Shown here in pieces: positions 53,166-60,023 of a stretch of DNA of 62,824 nt. The position numbers and the translations under genes are program-made. This stretch comes from Acidimicrobiales bacterium. GTDB taxonomy: Bacteria > Actinomycetota > Acidimicrobiia > Acidimicrobiales > Iamiaceae. Every line of letters starts with the position of its first letter. Within the stretch, counting starts at the first letter, position 1. Location of the stretch: the NCBI GenBank assembly GCA_025463365.1, contig JAOBWM010000113.1, positions 1-62,824 on the forward strand. Reading direction: 5' to 3'. The notes under the pieces were generated by a model. It did no database searches and was not told where the DNA came from. It saw only the letters and a program-made list of their open reading frames with translations.

Positions 53166-55070
53166 TCAGGCGTCCTTGGTCCCCGCCACCACGTCGTCGC
53201 GCTCGTCGATGTGGAACGGCACCGAGGTGACCACCGTGTTGGGGCGGCTGCGCAGTCGGGTGCGGAGCACGAGCGCGCTCTGGTTGTGCAACAGCTGTTG
53301 CCACCAGTGGTCGAGGGCGAACTCCGGCACGATCACCGTGACGAAGTCGTCGTCGTGGTGCTCGTCCAGATCGTCGACGTACCGAAGGATCGGGCGGGAG
53401 AGCTCGCGGTAGGGCGAGTACAGCGTCTGGAGCTCCACCGGGATCTCGTGCTCCTCCCACTGCTGGGTGATGCGCTCCTGCTCCTCCGGGCTCGACACGA
53501 CCGAGACGGCCACGAGGCGATCCGGGTTGAGCGAACGGGCATAGGCGATGGCGGTGAGCGAACCCTTGGTGACCTTGCCCACGAGCACGATGACGGTGTT
53601 GGTCCGACGGCGGACCTTCTCGCCGGGGGCCGCGGCCATGCGCCGGTCCACCTTTTCGTAGTGGCGATGGATGCGGCGGAAGAGCAACACGATGAGCGGG
53701 ATGACCGCGACCGGGATCCATGCGCCCTCGCCGAACTTCGAGATGATCACGACGGTCAGCACGATGCCGGTCATGGTGCAGCCGACCCCGTTGATGACGA
53801 GGCCTCGCTGCCAGTTCGGTTCTCGCAGGTGCAGGTGGTGCCGGCACATGCCGAACTGGCTGAGGGTGAAGCCGGTGAACACGCCCACCGCGTAGAGCGG
53901 GATCAAGGCGCTGACGTCGGCCTTGAACGCCACGATCAACAAGGCGGCCATGCCCGAGAGGATGAGCACGCCATTGGAGAACACGAGCCGATCGCCACGG
54001 TTGCCGAGCTGCCGGGGCAGGTAGCCGTCGCGGGCGATGATCGAGCTGAGCCGCGGGAAGTCGGCGAAGGCGGTGTTGGCCGCCAGGATCAAGATGGCGA
54101 ACGTGGCGAACTGCAGGGCGTAGTAGATGAAGCCCTTGCCGAAGATGGCCGCACCCATCTGCGAGAGGACGGTCTCCTTGTCGCTGAACACCGGGTGGAG
54201 GTGGCTGGCGAGGTAGCCGACGCCGAGGGTCGACACGCCGAGGATGGTGGCCATCATCATCAGGGTCTGCGAGGCGTTCTTGGACTCGGGCTTCTTGAAC
54301 GCCGGCACGCCGTTGGAGATCGCCTCCACGCCCGACAGCACGACGGCGCCCGACGAGAACGCCCGAAGCAACAGGAACCAACCGATGTTGTTCCCGAGGC
54401 TCTTGGCCGCGATGTGTTGCTGTTGCAGGAACTCCTTCGCCTTCTCCGGGCTCCCGGGGATCTGCCCAAGGTGCTGGGCGTTGATCCGGTAGATCCCGTA
54501 GGAGATCAGGGCGAACAGCAGCACGACGTAGGCGTAGGTGGGCACCGCGAAGATGCGTCCCGATTCCTTCAACCCACGCAGGTTGGCCAGCATCATCAGG
54601 CCGACGAAGAACAAGGCGAGAACCACCCGCAGCGCGTTGTCGTCGGCGAAGTGGAAGGCAGACCCGATGGCGAGCACGCCGGACGACACCGACACCGCCA
54701 CCGTGAGCGTGTAGTCGACGAGCAGCGAGGCTCCGGCCACCAGCGCCGCGATCTGGCTGATGTTCTCCCGGCTGACCACGTAGGCGCCGCCGCCGTCGGG
54801 GTAGGCGTGGATGGTCTGGCTGTAGGAGGTGGCCACCACGGCGAGGAGGAAGACCGCCACGATCGCCAGTGGGATCAGGTACTTGTGGCTGGCGGGGAAT
54901 GCGACCGCCGCCATCAGGACGAAGAGGATCTCCTCGGTGGCATACGCCGTCGACGAGATGGCATCGGAGGCGAAGACTGCGAGGGCGGTGGGCTTGCCGA
55001 GGCGCTGGTGGTGTTCCTCGGAGCTGGCGATCGGCTTGCCGACCAGCACTCGCTTGAAGGTGGATGTCAT
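53166..55070 (-). CDS. KimA-like potassium importer (KUP/APC fold with USP-like C terminus), copy 1
   Basis: 634 residues. Conserved features shared with B. subtilis KimA: FKRVLVGKPIAS at the start, YPDGGGAYVVSRENI, GASLLVDYTLTVAVSVSSGV, a 12-helix APC fold, and a C-terminal cytoplasmic USP-like domain with LYSPYRELSRPILRYVDDLD and LLHNQSALVLRTRLR. KimA imports K+ and is inhibited by c-di-AMP through that domain. The start overlaps the stop of the paralogue upstream (ATGA). K+ as substrate is inferred from homology and the adjacent TrkA genes; an amino acid transporter is the alternative. Confidence 0.85.
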   Translation of the reverse strand: MTSTFKRVLVGKPIASSEEHHQRLGKPTALAVFASDAISSTAYATEEILFVLMAAVAFPASHKYLIPLAIVAVFLLAVVATSYSQTIHAYPDGGGAYVVSRENISQIAALVAGASLLVDYTLTVAVSVSSGVLAIGSAFHFADDNALRVVLALFFVGLMMLANLRGLKESGRIFAVPTYAYVVLLFALISYGIYRINAQHLGQIPGSPEKAKEFLQQQHIAAKSLGNNIGWFLLLRAFSSGAVVLSGVEAISNGVPAFKKPESKNASQTLMMMATILGVSTLGVGYLASHLHPVFSDKETVLSQMGAAIFGKGFIYYALQFATFAILILAANTAFADFPRLSSIIARDGYLPRQLGNRGDRLVFSNGVLILSGMAALLIVAFKADVSALIPLYAVGVFTGFTLSQFGMCRHHLHLREPNWQRGLVINGVGCTMTGIVLTVVIISKFGEGAWIPVAVIPLIVLLFRRIHRHYEKVDRRMAAAPGEKVRRRTNTVIVLVGKVTKGSLTAIAYARSLNPDRLVAVSVVSSPEEQERITQQWEEHEIPVELQTLYSPYRELSRPILRYVDDLDEHHDDDFVTVIVPEFALDHWWQQLLHNQSALVLRTRLRSRPNTVVTSVPFHIDERDDVVAGTKDA

Positions 55071-57025
55071 GGATCTCCCTGCCGGGCAGGCTCAGCGCCC
55101 TCGGCGACCAGCGGGTCCGGATGGGCGAGGGCGACGGTAATCCCGCCGCCCTTGGAGACGTGAAACGGGACGGACGTGACGACGGTGTTGGGACGACCTC
55201 GCAAGCGCGTCCGCAACAGGAGCGCACTCTGGTTGTGCAGCAACTGCTGCCACCAGTGGTCCAGCGCGAACTCGGGGACCACCACCGTGACGAAGTCGTC
55301 GTCGTAGCGGTCGTCGAGGTCGTCGACGTAGCGCAGGATCGGTCGTGAGAGCTCCCGATACGGCGAGTACAGCGTCTGGAGCTCCACCGGGATCTGGTGG
55401 GCCTCCCATTGGCGCGTGATCCGATCCTGCTCCTCGGCGTTGGACACCACCGTGACGGCCACGAGCCGGTCCGGGTTGAGCGAACGGGCATAGGCGATCG
55501 CGGTGAGCGAGCCGCGCGTCACGCGCCCGACGAGGACGATCACCGTGTTGGTGCGACGCCGGACCTTCTCGGTCTCGGGCACCTCGAGCAGCTCGTCCAT
55601 CGAGGTGTAGTGGCGGTTGATCCCCTTGAGCAAGAGCACGATCGACGGGATCACCACCACCGGGATCCATGCCCCCTGGGCGAACTTCGAGATGACGACC
55701 ACGACCAGCACCACGCCGGTCATGAAGCAACCGAGGCCGTTGATGACCAGGCTCTGGCGCCACTTCGGCTCCCGAAGTCGGAGGTGGTGCTTGACCATCC
55801 CGTACTGGCTGAGGGTGAAGCCCACGAACACGCCCACCGCGTACAGCGGGATCAAGGCGCTCACCTCGGCCTTGAACGCCACGATGAGCAGTGCCGCCAT
55901 GCCCGACAGGATCAGCACGCCGTTCGAGAACACGAGCCGGTCGCCTCGGTTCGCCAGCTGCCTCGGCAAGAAGCCGTCGCTCGCGATGTTCGACGACAGC
56001 TGTGGGAACCCGGCGTACGCAGTGTTCGCGGCGAGGATCAAGATCCCGAAGGTGGCGAACTGGAGGCAGTAGTAGATGGCGCTGCCCTGGCCGAAGATGG
56101 CCGCACCCATCTGCGACAGCACCGTGTCGCCGCCCTCCTCGAACACCGGGTGCAGGTGGCTTGCGAGGTAGCTGATGCCGAGCGTCATCGCACCGAGGAT
56201 GAAAGCCATCATCGTGAGCGTCTGCGCGGCGTTCTTGGACTTGGGCTTGCGGAACGCAGGCACTCCGTTCGACATGGCCTCGACCCCGGCGAGCACGACC
56301 GCCCCCGACGAGAACGCCCGCAGGAGCAGCAACAGGCCCACCGAGCCGGTGAGCTTGGCGACGTCGGCCCCCTGCTCCTCGGCGAATCGATGGGCCTTCG
56401 CGTCGTTGCCGGGAATCGAGCCGAGGTGCTGGAAGCCGATCCGGTAGATGCCGTACCCGATGAGCAGCGACAAGAACAGGGCGTACACGTAGGTGGGCAC
56501 GGCGAAGACGCGGCCGGCCTCCTTCAGCCCTCGGAGGTTGCCGAGCGCCATGAGGACGACGAACCCGAGGGCGAGCACGACCCGCAGCGTGGCGTTGTGG
56601 TTGAAGTGGAAGGCCGAGCCGATGGCCAGGACCCCCGACGACACCGACACCGCGACGGTCAGCGTGTAGTCGACCAGGAGTGAGGCGCCTGCGACCAGCG
56701 CTGAGGTCCGGCCGATGTTCTCGCGGCTCACCACGTAGGCGCCGCCACCGTCGGGATAGGCGTAGAGCGTCTGGCGGTAGGACGTGCACACCACGGCGAG
56801 CAGGAAGACGGCCACGATCGCCATCGGCACGAGGTACTTGTGCGTCTGCGGGAACGTCGCGCCGGCGAGGAGGACGAACAGGATCTCCTCGGTCGCGTAC
56901 GCCGTCGACGAGATCGCGTCCGACGCGAACACCGCCAACGCGACGGGTTTGCCGAGCGCCTGGTGCTCCTGCTCGTTGCTCGCGAGCGGCTTGCCCACCA
57001 GGAACCGCTTGAACGTGGAGGCCAT
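55067..57025 (-). CDS. KimA-like potassium importer, copy 2
   Basis: 652 residues from ATG 57025, preceded by AAAGGG. Closely similar to copy 1 along its whole length (FKRFLVGKPLAS; YPDGGGAYVVSRENIG; LLHNQSALLLRTRLR), with differences in the loop around residues 210-235 and in the tail (VSKGGGITVALAHPDPLV). It is first in the two-gene unit and divergent from the TrkA pair. Two translationally coupled paralogues suggest different affinity or regulation, or a heteromer. Confidence 0.85.
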   Translation of the reverse strand: MASTFKRFLVGKPLASNEQEHQALGKPVALAVFASDAISSTAYATEEILFVLLAGATFPQTHKYLVPMAIVAVFLLAVVCTSYRQTLYAYPDGGGAYVVSRENIGRTSALVAGASLLVDYTLTVAVSVSSGVLAIGSAFHFNHNATLRVVLALGFVVLMALGNLRGLKEAGRVFAVPTYVYALFLSLLIGYGIYRIGFQHLGSIPGNDAKAHRFAEEQGADVAKLTGSVGLLLLLRAFSSGAVVLAGVEAMSNGVPAFRKPKSKNAAQTLTMMAFILGAMTLGISYLASHLHPVFEEGGDTVLSQMGAAIFGQGSAIYYCLQFATFGILILAANTAYAGFPQLSSNIASDGFLPRQLANRGDRLVFSNGVLILSGMAALLIVAFKAEVSALIPLYAVGVFVGFTLSQYGMVKHHLRLREPKWRQSLVINGLGCFMTGVVLVVVVISKFAQGAWIPVVVIPSIVLLLKGINRHYTSMDELLEVPETEKVRRRTNTVIVLVGRVTRGSLTAIAYARSLNPDRLVAVTVVSNAEEQDRITRQWEAHQIPVELQTLYSPYRELSRPILRYVDDLDDRYDDDFVTVVVPEFALDHWWQQLLHNQSALLLRTRLRGRPNTVVTSVPFHVSKGGGITVALAHPDPLVAEGAEPARQGDP

Positions 57026-57151
57026 CGTGCCCTTTCGGCCGAAGGAGGGCTGCGGACCGGGCGATCGTACGGGCCGCAGCGACCCGATGGAGCCGACGGG
57101 CACGGCGTCCGAGATGACGGAGATGTGGCGGGATCACCCCCGCGAACCGGG

Positions 57152-57171
57152 CCTGTCAGGCTTCTGACAGG
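57152..57171. promoter_or_regulatory. Palindrome in the KimA/TrkA divergent promoter region
   Basis: CCTGTCAGGCTTCTGACAGG has 8-bp perfect arms around GCTT. It is 68 bases upstream of the first TrkA start, in a 213-bp gap shared with the permease operon. It could be an operator coordinating both directions. I found no c-di-AMP riboswitch in this gap. Confidence 0.5.
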
Positions 57172-57238
57172 ATGCGTCACCCGCCGCCTCGGACCTAGGC
57201 TGCGCCGCCGTTGCCCGGGAGCCCGGGCGTGAGGTGAG

Positions 57239-57916
57239 GTGAAGACCGTGCACGTCGTTGTCGTGGGTTGCGGACGGGTAGGAGCCGGGTTGGCTCGCAC
57301 CCTCGAAGAGGCCGGCCACAGCGTGGCCGTGGTCGACCGCAAGCCGAAGGCGTTCGAGCGCCTCCCCGATGGGTTCAAGGGCAAGACGGTCGTCGGGGTC
57401 GGGTTCGACCGCGACCGCCTGAAGGCCGCCGGCATCGAAGAAGCCCAGGCGTTGGCCGCGGTGACCAATGGCGACAACTCGAACATCCTCGTGGCCCGCG
57501 TGGCCCGCGAGACCTTCGGCATCGATCGCGTCGTCGCCCGCATCTACGACCCCCGCCGGGCGAAGATCTACGAACGACTCGGCATCCCCACCATCGCCAC
57601 CGTCGAGTGGGCGACCGAGCGGGTCCTCCAGCGGATCCTGCCCGAGCGCACCACCGCCGACTGGATCGACGGCAGCGCCAAGATCCTCCTCGTCGAGCGG
57701 CCGGTGCCGCCGGCCTGGGCCGGCAAGAAGGTGGCCGACCTCGACGTGCAGGGCCATGCCCGCGTGGCCGGCATCACCCGCCTCGGCGAGGGCACGGTGG
57801 CCGGTCCCGACACGGTGCTGCAGGACGGCGACCTCGTGCACGTGATGGTGAACGGTGATTCGCTCGACCAGTTCGACCGGCACCTGGTCGGCCCCGTCGC
57901 GGGGCGTGGTCACTGA
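57239..57916 (+). CDS. trkA: TrkA-family K+ uptake regulatory protein (CeoB-like)
   Basis: 225 residues from a GTG at 57239 (a GTG at 57248 is possible). RCK-N Rossmann motif VVVGCGRVGAGLARTLEEAG, acidic end of strand 2 in VVDRKPKAF, and a TrkA-C domain near residues 140-215 (GKKVADLDVQGHARVAGITR). It binds NAD(H) or ATP and gates Trk/Ktr-type K+ channels. It pairs with the second TrkA gene downstream. Confidence 0.92.
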   Translation: MKTVHVVVVGCGRVGAGLARTLEEAGHSVAVVDRKPKAFERLPDGFKGKTVVGVGFDRDRLKAAGIEEAQALAAVTNGDNSNILVARVARETFGIDRVVARIYDPRRAKIYERLGIPTIATVEWATERVLQRILPERTTADWIDGSAKILLVERPVPPAWAGKKVADLDVQGHARVAGITRLGEGTVAGPDTVLQDGDLVHVMVNGDSLDQFDRHLVGPVAGRGH

Positions 57917-57962
57917 TGCAGCACCTGCCCACCTCCGCCCCCACCACCCGAGGAGCCCACTG

Positions 57963-58631
57963 ATGCGCGTCGTGATCGCCGGAGCCGGCAGCGTCGGCAC
58001 GTTCATCGCCGAGGACCTCGCCAAGGCCGGGCACGAGGTCGTCATCGTCGAGGTCGACGCGGCCCGCGTCGAGTCGGCGGCCCGCAACGGCGAAGCCACC
58101 GCGGCCGAATGGGTCGCGGCCGATGCGTGCGAGGTGAGCGAGTTCGCCCGAGCCGGCGTCGACCGGGCCGACGTGGTCGCAGCTGTCACCGGCGACGATG
58201 AGGACAACCTCGTGATCTCGCTGCTCGCCAAGCAGGAGTTCGGCGTCCCACGCGTGGTCGCCCGGGTGAACAACCCCCGCAACGAGTGGATGTTCAACGA
58301 GATGTGGGGCATCGACGTGTCGGTCTCCACGCCGCACCTGCTGAGCGCCCTCGTCGAGGAGGCCGTGTCGGTCGGGAGCCTGGTCCGACTCCTCTCGTTC
58401 GAAGGCGGCCGCGCCCGCCTGTCGGAGGCCACCCTCACCGACGAGTCACCGTCCGCCGGCCGTGACATCGCCGAGCTCGGCCTCCCCCGCGATTCCACCG
58501 TCGTCGCCATCATCCGCGACAGCCACGTGATCGTCCCGCGGGGCGACACCGTGCTGCGCGCCGGTGACGAGGTCCTCGTGCTCTCCACACCGGAGGCCGA
58601 GGACGACGTGGTGTCCACCCTGCTGGGCTGA
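57963..58631 (+). CDS. trkA: TrkA-family K+ uptake regulatory protein (CeoC-like)
   Basis: 222 residues with GAGGAG before the ATG. RCK-N motif VVIAGAGSVGTFIAEDLAKA and strand-2 VVIVEVDAARVES; TrkA-C domain from about residue 145 (SPSAGRDIAELGLPRDSTVV ... LRAGDEVLVLS). Paired single-domain TrkA proteins are typical of actinobacteria (CeoB/CeoC in mycobacteria). No TrkH or KtrB-type pore gene is in the window, so the partner is either encoded elsewhere or is the KimA-like protein. Confidence 0.92.
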   Translation: MRVVIAGAGSVGTFIAEDLAKAGHEVVIVEVDAARVESAARNGEATAAEWVAADACEVSEFARAGVDRADVVAAVTGDDEDNLVISLLAKQEFGVPRVVARVNNPRNEWMFNEMWGIDVSVSTPHLLSALVEEAVSVGSLVRLLSFEGGRARLSEATLTDESPSAGRDIAELGLPRDSTVVAIIRDSHVIVPRGDTVLRAGDEVLVLSTPEAEDDVVSTLLG

Positions 58632-59528: not shown

Positions 59529-59672
59529 CGCCGGCTCGGCGCCCGGCGCCCCCGACCCGAGGTGCCGGTGGCCGCACCACCGCCACCCTGGCAGCACTGG
59601 GAGGGACCTCGTTGTCGTCCTTGTCGTCGAGCCTGATTGCCCTTGTCGGCGGGGCGTGGGACAGTGGGCGCC

Positions 59673-60023
59673 GTGCTGAAGAAGCTGCGCACCCGTCTCT
59701 CGCAGTCCCTGGAAGATCTCGACGACGAGCGCGTCACCCAGCGCTTCTCGGACTTCGGGGCCCAGGCCATCGCCGATGCGCCGACGCGCACGCCGATCCT
59801 GCTGGCCGGTGAGATCCAGGGCCTCCAGGTCGTACCCCGCGCTGGCTCGCCTTCGCTCGAGGTCACCATCGGTGACGGCAGCGGCCGGGCCATCGCGGTG
59901 TTCACGGGGCGTCGCCGCCTCGGTGGCGTCGACTGCGGTCGCCGAGTCGTGGTGCAAGGCGTCGCTCGGCGCGAGCGCGGCCGCCTCATGATCCTCAACC
60001 CGGCGTACACGATCGTCGAGTAG
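59673..60023 (+). CDS. OB-fold nucleic acid-binding domain protein
   Basis: 116 residues from a GTG at 59673. ILLAGEIQGLQVVPRAGSPS then LEVTIGDGSGRAIAVFTGRR and VVVQGVARRERGRLMILNPA outline a five-stranded OB barrel. From memory, mycobacteria keep a similar small OB-fold gene close to ceoBC (Rv2694c), so the link to the TrkA block is conserved. Function unknown. Confidence 0.82.
   Translation: MLKKLRTRLSQSLEDLDDERVTQRFSDFGAQAIADAPTRTPILLAGEIQGLQVVPRAGSPSLEVTIGDGSGRAIAVFTGRRRLGGVDCGRRVVVQGVARRERGRLMILNPAYTIVE

Follow-up and report, generated by a model that had tools for sequence, protein, structure and literature searches.

Two predicted KimA-type K+/H+ symporters are encoded in tandem at the locus described here, divergently from two genes for TrkA-like RCK proteins, and this arrangement raises the question of which membrane protein the RCK pair controls. 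An earlier note, made from the sequence alone, had suggested that the pair might gate the symporters. The window, the whole 62,824-nucleotide stretch of DNA that was analyzed, contains the following features at this locus.

53166..55070, minus strand: KimA-a, predicted KimA-type K+/H+ symporter, 634 aa, downstream gene of the tandem
55067..57025, minus strand: KimA-b, predicted KimA-type K+/H+ symporter, 652 aa, upstream gene of the tandem
57026..57238: divergent intergenic region between KimA-b and RCK1, 213 bases, from sequence
57239..57916, plus strand: RCK1, 225 aa, GTG start, TrkA_N and TrkA_C domains (Pfam), in the CeoB position
57963..58631, plus strand: RCK2, 222 aa, TrkA_N and TrkA_C domains (Pfam), in the CeoC position
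59637..60023, plus strand: gene for a small OB-fold-like protein (Pfam OB E 8e-4, below cut-off), a conserved neighbor in the cluster

KimA-a, KimA-b, RCK1, and RCK2 are all intact at these coordinates, and homology and domain content agree with the description in the earlier note of two KimA-type permeases divergent from a TrkA-like pair. The RCK2 start was taken as the ATG at 57963 because the alternative, a 258-aa frame beginning at 57855, would run into RCK1. The stop codon of KimA-b and the start codon of KimA-a have the bases ATGA (55067–55070) in common, an overlap that fits translational coupling of the two genes as far as sequence can indicate. An Rfam scan of the whole window returned three tRNAs only and no riboswitch upstream, and an alignment of the intergenic region with those of four relatives gave no clear block in common that could represent a promoter footprint. 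Among the 102 actinobacterial loci examined, 70 have a relative of the OB-fold-like gene no more than 4 kb from KimA, and such a gene also accompanies KimA at loci that have no RCK pair (L088, L099, and L163).

On the basis of full-length homology, both permeases are members of the KimA (KUP) family. Matches by phmmer to Bacillus subtilis KimA, the sole PDB sequence match for each permease at E 0.001, gave E values of 2e-133 for KimA-a (6s3k, residues 4–621) and 1.2e-131 for KimA-b (residues 4–625). An AlphaFold2 model, of copy b only, had a pLDDT of 89.3 and a LeuT-fold membrane domain followed by a PPAT-like cytosolic domain; its three best PDB folds (8b70, 8b71, and 6s3k) are all KimA, with TM-scores by target of 0.84–0.90. 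In B. subtilis KimA numbering, with roles as given in the available text of PMC6994465 and PMC10284832, residues Asp-36, Tyr-43, Asp-117, Thr-121, Glu-233, and Tyr-377 are retained in both copies; Asp-36, Tyr-43, Thr-121, Glu-233, and Tyr-377 are K+ site residues, and the K+/H+ coupling residues (Asp-36, Tyr-43, Tyr-377, and Glu-233) are retained in 94 of 94 RCK-linked KimA proteins. Thr-230 is replaced by alanine in KimA-b and by serine in KimA-a; a T230A variant of the B. subtilis protein is described in the available text of PMC6994465 as still supporting growth.

The c-di-AMP contacts Arg-337, His-579, Asn-580, Gln-581, and Ser-582 are also retained in both copies, and Pro-479 is changed to leucine. 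Over a wider set of KimA proteins, in a count that took in the window's own genome, conservation in RCK-linked versus unlinked members was 84/94 versus 45/58 for Arg-337, 63/94 versus 54/58 for His-579, 59/94 versus 46/58 for Asn-580, and 56/94 versus 46/58 for Gln-581. The weaker conservation of the pocket in RCK-linked proteins may in part reflect misalignment caused by a doubled cytosolic domain; if real, it would fit a replacement of c-di-AMP control by RCK control in some lineages. A duplicated C-terminal cytosolic domain was seen in 34 of 151 KimA proteins (for example, L046–L049, L056, L058, and L059), all 34 from Actinomycetota and 32 of them in loci that bear RCK1.

The duplication of the permease reported in the earlier note is real, with KimA-a and KimA-b 77% identical over the aligned part, but it is not peculiar to the window, as tandem KimA is a recurring variant elsewhere. 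Tandem copies with 53–76% identity occur in several lineages, both with RCK genes (L046, L047, L070, L093, L095, L111, and L187) and without them (L104 and L188). KimA-b has its best match in L111A (78%), and the orthology of KimA-a to the L111 copies is ambiguous, with identities of 76% to KimA-b and of 74% and 73% to the L111 copies. Heterodimers of the tandem copies are conceivable.

The domain content of RCK1 and RCK2 is that of Trk-type RCK subunits. The closest PDB sequence to RCK1 is Thermotoga maritima TM1088A, and those closest to RCK2 are TrkA of Vibrio parahaemolyticus (species from PMC4380455) and TM1088B. RCK1 keeps the GxGxxG motif, which is present among 79 KimA-linked pairs in 79 RCK1 and 78 RCK2 proteins. 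The RCK_C motif for c-di-AMP, (I/L)(I/L)x2DxRx5N(I/L)(I/L), was found in 0 of 103 RCK1 and 0 of 103 RCK2 sequences, even when relaxed to admit valine, and a role of RCK_C as a c-di-AMP sensor was rejected on this ground. The missing motif suggests that the input to the pair is probably a nucleotide other than c-di-AMP.

We examined the potassium-transport inventory of the genome assembly, which comprises 4.3 Mb in 219 contigs and is 98.4% complete. A search for the TrkH/KtrB pore gave 0 matches across the assembly and was positive in 11 of 14 control genomes. The lack of TrkH near the locus, noted earlier, thus extends to the whole genome, and the search gave no TrkH elsewhere that could account for the TrkA-like pair; had one been found, it would have counted against the proposal of the earlier note. 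KdpA and Kup were likewise without a match in the assembly, as were the RCK-linked pump types described below (1e-150 with query L087 and 1e-180 with query L079). The TrkA_N domain occurs in RCK1, in RCK2, and in one larger protein on contig C45, and there is one DAC protein (c-di-AMP cyclase). The position of the RCK proteins beside KimA, in a genome that lacks the TrkH that such regulators normally control, suggests that they control KimA instead. A third KimA (C105:11497-13329, locus L099), 46% identical to KimA-b, is adjoined by its own OB-fold-like gene, and the 8 kb examined there contain no RCK gene.

To place the arrangement in a wider context, we used a sample of 198 Actinomycetota genomes, spread evenly over the phylum and not independent of one another. 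KimA was found in 81 genomes (E ≤ 1e-40) and TrkH in 110 (E ≤ 1e-5), and 155 genomes contained an RCK1 relative (E ≤ 1e-15). An RCK1 relative lies within 6 kb of KimA in at least 59 of the 81 KimA-positive genomes, a lower bound since the count used 101 RCK matches among those listed. Judged by the nearest copy, these at least 59 comprise 47 divergent and 12 co-oriented arrangements, and by hand count they span 21 family codes. TrkH is present in 7 of these 59 linked genomes (59 being again a minimum), 9 of the 22 other KimA-positive genomes, and 94 of the 117 genomes without KimA; the opposition of KimA and TrkH has a Fisher p of 8e-18 when shared ancestry is ignored. The 22 KimA-positive genomes in which the RCK matches used revealed no adjacency have an RCK1 relative (≥43% identity) elsewhere in 6 cases, a pump-linked pair in 7, and none among the matches used in 9.

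Family f2 provides a clean contrast within one family: its three KimA-positive genomes have an adjacent RCK pair and no TrkH, and in its five KimA-negative genomes TrkH occurs without any RCK1 relative at 1e-15. Families f33 and f47 do not follow this pattern; the one linked genome in each also carries TrkH, like most of the KimA-negative relatives listed. The 101 RCK matches used place an RCK1 relative with 43% identity or more in 79 genomes, 65 of them with KimA and the remaining 14 all with TrkH. The matches left out of the 101 include short ones in G089 and G132 (47% over 125–131 of 225 residues), and G132, with neither KimA nor TrkH, would be an exception to a rule of one or the other.

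Individual loci give a similar view of the neighborhood. The named relatives come from a KimA alignment of the best 80 of 591 matches and are biased to close relatives; loci L002–L030 entered neither the locus counts nor the trees, and L001, from the window's genome, was included in the trees. An Ilumatobacteraceae metagenome-assembled genome (MAG; L111) carries the full gene set of the window, namely OB, RCK2, RCK1, KimA, KimA, and a metallo-beta-lactamase-like gene, and on this basis the window probably belongs to the Ilumatobacteraceae. A single KimA divergent from the RCK pair occurs in Rhodococcus, Nocardia, Micromonospora, Actinomadura, Frankia, and a Mycobacterium MAG. RCK genes are present in 82 of 102 actinobacterial loci, a figure inflated by the choice of L031–L110 partly for KimA/RCK adjacency, and 17 of the 102 have neither RCK nor OB genes nearby. 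In a hand count over the best 80 of 591, RCK genes accompany KimA in 35 of the 41 loci from actinobacteria and in 3 of the 39 others, two of the 39 being unclassified. These three are co-directional: KimA-KimA-RCK1-RCK2 in Chloroflexota (L187), KimA-RCK1-RCK2 in an unclassified genome (L131), and RCK1-RCK2-KimA in Armatimonadota (L134); TrkH had no match in these three genomes, whose completeness is not stated. KimA occurs without an RCK pair in the remaining 36 of the 39 loci from outside Actinomycetota or unclassified, among them loci of Bacillota (5), Nitrospirota (9), and Cyanobacteriota (6). In two Nitrospirota loci (L129 and L133), KimA lies directly downstream of a P2-type ATPase, with no RCK genes.

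The linkage of KimA and RCK genes recurs in so many lineages that it is more than chance, and the pairing is not specific to the window's genome. The partnership suggested from a single sequence by the earlier note is conserved across the phylum and is also seen in other phyla.

Is the RCK pair dedicated to KimA? Relatives of the pair adjoin P2-type ATPases and TrkH in other genomes, so the idea of a pair dedicated to KimA alone was rejected. Of the 14 KimA-less genomes with an RCK1 relative (≥43% identity), 12 have a P-type ATPase immediately next to the pair; of the remaining two pairs, one is at a contig end and the other (L082) is beside a diverged KimA-like protein. The latter (L082:2-2146, minus strand, in G172) is strongly diverged, has no Pfam match at 0.001, and is divergent from its RCK pair. 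A pump of the L079 type lies within 1 kb of an RCK1 relative, upstream and on the same strand, in at least 33 of 42 pump genomes, a count that used 44 of 72 pump matches and 36 picked RCK matches and was not blind. Genome G048 has a second L079-type pump downstream of its RCK1 relative, and G023 has both a KimA-linked and a pump-linked RCK pair. In G102, which belongs to the same taxonomic order as the window, the pair (RCK1 62% identical) adjoins a Ca-type P-ATPase, and KimA is elsewhere. The order pump-RCK1-RCK2 was seen in L071–L075, L077–L081, L083–L086, L090, and L194–L201.

The P2-type ATPases upstream of RCK pairs are possibly RCK-regulated pumps. The best PDB sequences for the L079 pump are Na,K-ATPase α chains. 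Of five pumps compared with NCBIfam, L079 and L075 matched best to TIGR01106 (Na,H/K type) and L201, L129, and L087 to TIGR01522 (Ca, PMR1 type), all below cut-off. The TM4 sequence is VANVPEGLLPT, a motif that we take to be linked to K+ pumps, in 8 of 18 matches; in seven others, many of them truncated at the locus end, the motif could not be read.

TrkH has its own, more distant RCK pairs. In a tree of 62 RCK1+RCK2 pairs, the actinobacterial KimA-linked pairs form one group (100/100) that also holds L082, L087, and L089, and 11 of 13 pump-linked pairs form another (99/91) together with L076. A third group (100/100) is made up of four TrkH-linked pairs and four second pairs of the same loci, and a fourth (100/100) contains the three non-actinobacterial pairs linked to KimA. 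The KimA, pump, and TrkH labels need four changes on this tree, and for both KimA and pump 0 of 500 shuffles were as low. Forcing all KimA-linked RCK pairs together was borderline (p-AU 0.045), and because of this and because the position of the root is not known, we claim partner changes and not two independent RCK-KimA pairings.

Taken together, these data favor, with a probability of roughly 0.6, a reading in which the four genes make up one K+ uptake system and the RCK pair is a nucleotide-sensing switch on KimA. Counted for it were the linkage in at least 59 of 81 genomes, the small number with TrkH, the contrast within f2, the clusters with other gene orders, the lack of TrkH, KdpA, Kup, and pump matches in the window's genome, the retained K+ residues, the presence of DAC, and, from the literature described below, the rifampicin phenotype common to ceoB and Rv2690c, the slight sensitivity to low K+ on loss of ceoBC, and the S. 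venezuelae report; counted against it were the activity of B. subtilis KimA by itself, the KimA loci without RCK genes, the 22 of 81 genomes without adjacency, the pump- and TrkH-linked pairs, G102, the TrkH of f33 and f47, the incomplete conservation of the c-di-AMP pocket in linked KimA, the normal growth of the ceoBC deletion in low K+, the growth of the trk knockout, and the two screens that report Rv2690c without ceoB. The partnership of KimA and RCK is well supported by linkage and phylogenetic profile, two lines that speak to partnership and not to contact; direct gating of KimA, as suggested in the earlier note, survives as an inference. In such a system the KimA-type symporters, of LeuT fold and coupling K+ to H+, would carry K+ into the cell. 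RCK1 and RCK2 would assemble into a two-protein ring of the TM1088A/B kind, a mixed octamer, that may bind an adenine nucleotide, NAD(H) or ADP/ATP, dock on the cytoplasmic side of KimA, and switch its activity, most likely as a positive regulator. A second, inhibitory input could come from c-di-AMP, made by the genome's DAC protein and acting at KimA's own cytosolic domain. KimA alone suffices in other bacteria, and the RCK pair would therefore be an added control rather than a required subunit.

Other readings of the locus differ in the target assigned to the RCK pair. The genes might form one K+ homeostasis regulon with a divergent promoter region in common, and the pair might act in trans on another membrane protein, such as a channel or an unrecognized transporter. 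The genome does encode one Ion_trans_2 (channel-domain) protein, on contig C193, that has no TrkA_N match of its own, and RCK pairs associate with other transporters elsewhere; however, the 3.8 kb examined around the C193 gene show no match to RCK, KimA, or pump proteins, and the linkage to KimA persists through divergent and co-directional gene orders in several phyla, so that we regard an action in trans as unlikely but not negligible. We consider it less probable still that c-di-AMP is the sole control of KimA transport and that the RCK pair serves as a soluble sensor of K+ or of a nucleotide, without a transport partner and kept beside KimA by history. The retained pocket residues, the DAC protein, and the many KimA loci without RCK genes would all suit such an arrangement, yet RCK pairs track a cation transporter in three settings with labels that cluster on the tree, KimA and the RCK pair co-occur across f2, each missing where the other is missing, and ceoB and Rv2690c have a transposon phenotype in common (available text of PMC12216072).

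An ordinary Trk system whose TrkH is missing through incomplete assembly is very improbable. The assembly is indeed fragmented into 219 contigs and short of complete, but TrkH had no match in 52 of the 59 genomes with the arrangement (at least 59 in all), including the single-contig genomes G016, G023, G074, G080, and G150, and this explanation was rejected because of that count. A chosen set of 20 genomes that contain further linked loci, with completeness not stated, includes 15 in which TrkH likewise had no match, the three non-actinobacterial ones among them.

Beside the preferred reading of one K+ uptake system under RCK control stands a broader proposal. RCK pairs adjoin TrkH, KimA, and P2-type ATPases and thus look like a regulator coupled to three unrelated transporter folds. 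We tentatively propose, at somewhat under even odds, that they are a portable regulator of cation uptake, in largely separate clades for TrkH, the LeuT-fold KimA, and P2-type ATPases (some closest to Na,K-ATPase), and that, in TrkH-less actinobacteria, KimA supplies the membrane partner that the so-called Trk (CeoBC) proteins otherwise lack. If RCK proteins do act on a P-type pump and on a symporter of LeuT fold, their control would extend beyond channel-like pores, and one regulator would have been reused on three transport mechanisms. Mycobacterial K+ papers call CeoB and CeoC a transport system, and both are RCK proteins without a named TrkH; KimA as their likely membrane partner is a directly testable proposal.

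The likeness to the mycobacterial Rv2690c-ceoB-ceoC locus that the earlier note had pointed out is borne out by the Mycobacterium MAG (L189), in which a permease is divergent from two RCK genes. We take Rv2690c to be the L189-type KimA permease, leaning also on the words "adjacent gene" in PMC12216072. The locus Rv2690c-ceoB (trkA)-ceoC (trkB) then resembles the window in having a KimA-type permease divergent from two RCK genes with an OB-fold-like gene nearby, and differs in having a single permease where the window has a tandem pair. The grouping is in part already in print: ceoB and its neighbor Rv2690c are both assigned to the Trk system in a 2025 transposon study in which Mycobacterium tuberculosis insertions in both raised rifampicin survival, among 13 such mutants; its available text proposes no mechanism for the two genes (PMC12216072). 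In the available parts of the other reports, loss of ceoBC made M. tuberculosis slightly more sensitive to low K+ and a ceoBC deletion gave no growth defect in low K+ (PMC6375644), and a trk knockout outgrew the wild type at pH 6–7 (PMC4553272). Two other screens report Rv2690c, and term searches of their main text did not return ceoB (PMC8805019 and PMC10534295); TrkH was absent from the main text of the mycobacterial papers searched by term.

The window KimA copies share with B. subtilis KimA (6S3K, 8B70, and 8B71) the family, the fold, the K+ residues, and the c-di-AMP contacts except Pro-479, and differ from it at residue 230. To our knowledge, B. subtilis KimA has no RCK partner. It supports growth of Escherichia coli LB2003 without RCK partners, according to the available text of PMC6994465. 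T. maritima TM1088A/TM1088B and the window pair are both two-protein RCK sets; the partner of the former is the TrkH TM1089 (PMC4380455, available text), whereas the latter adjoins KimA, and TM1088A consists of the N domain only, whereas RCK1 also has TrkA_C.

A literature search, outside which most subscription journals lie, returned no report of RCK proteins as regulators of KimA or of a P-type pump, a silence that is weak evidence of novelty. The available text of PMC10117811 reports that Streptomyces venezuelae lacks TrkH and that its RCK_C protein Vnz_27460 does not bind c-di-AMP, and lists this protein and the KimA-like Vnz_27465 in separate places. In Streptomyces CpeA/CpeB and B. subtilis KhtT/KhtU, as covered there, an RCK_C protein likewise regulates a cation transporter other than Trk; these systems are K+/H+ antiporters that bind c-di-AMP at RCK_C, whereas in the window the motif is absent and the candidate partner is an importer.
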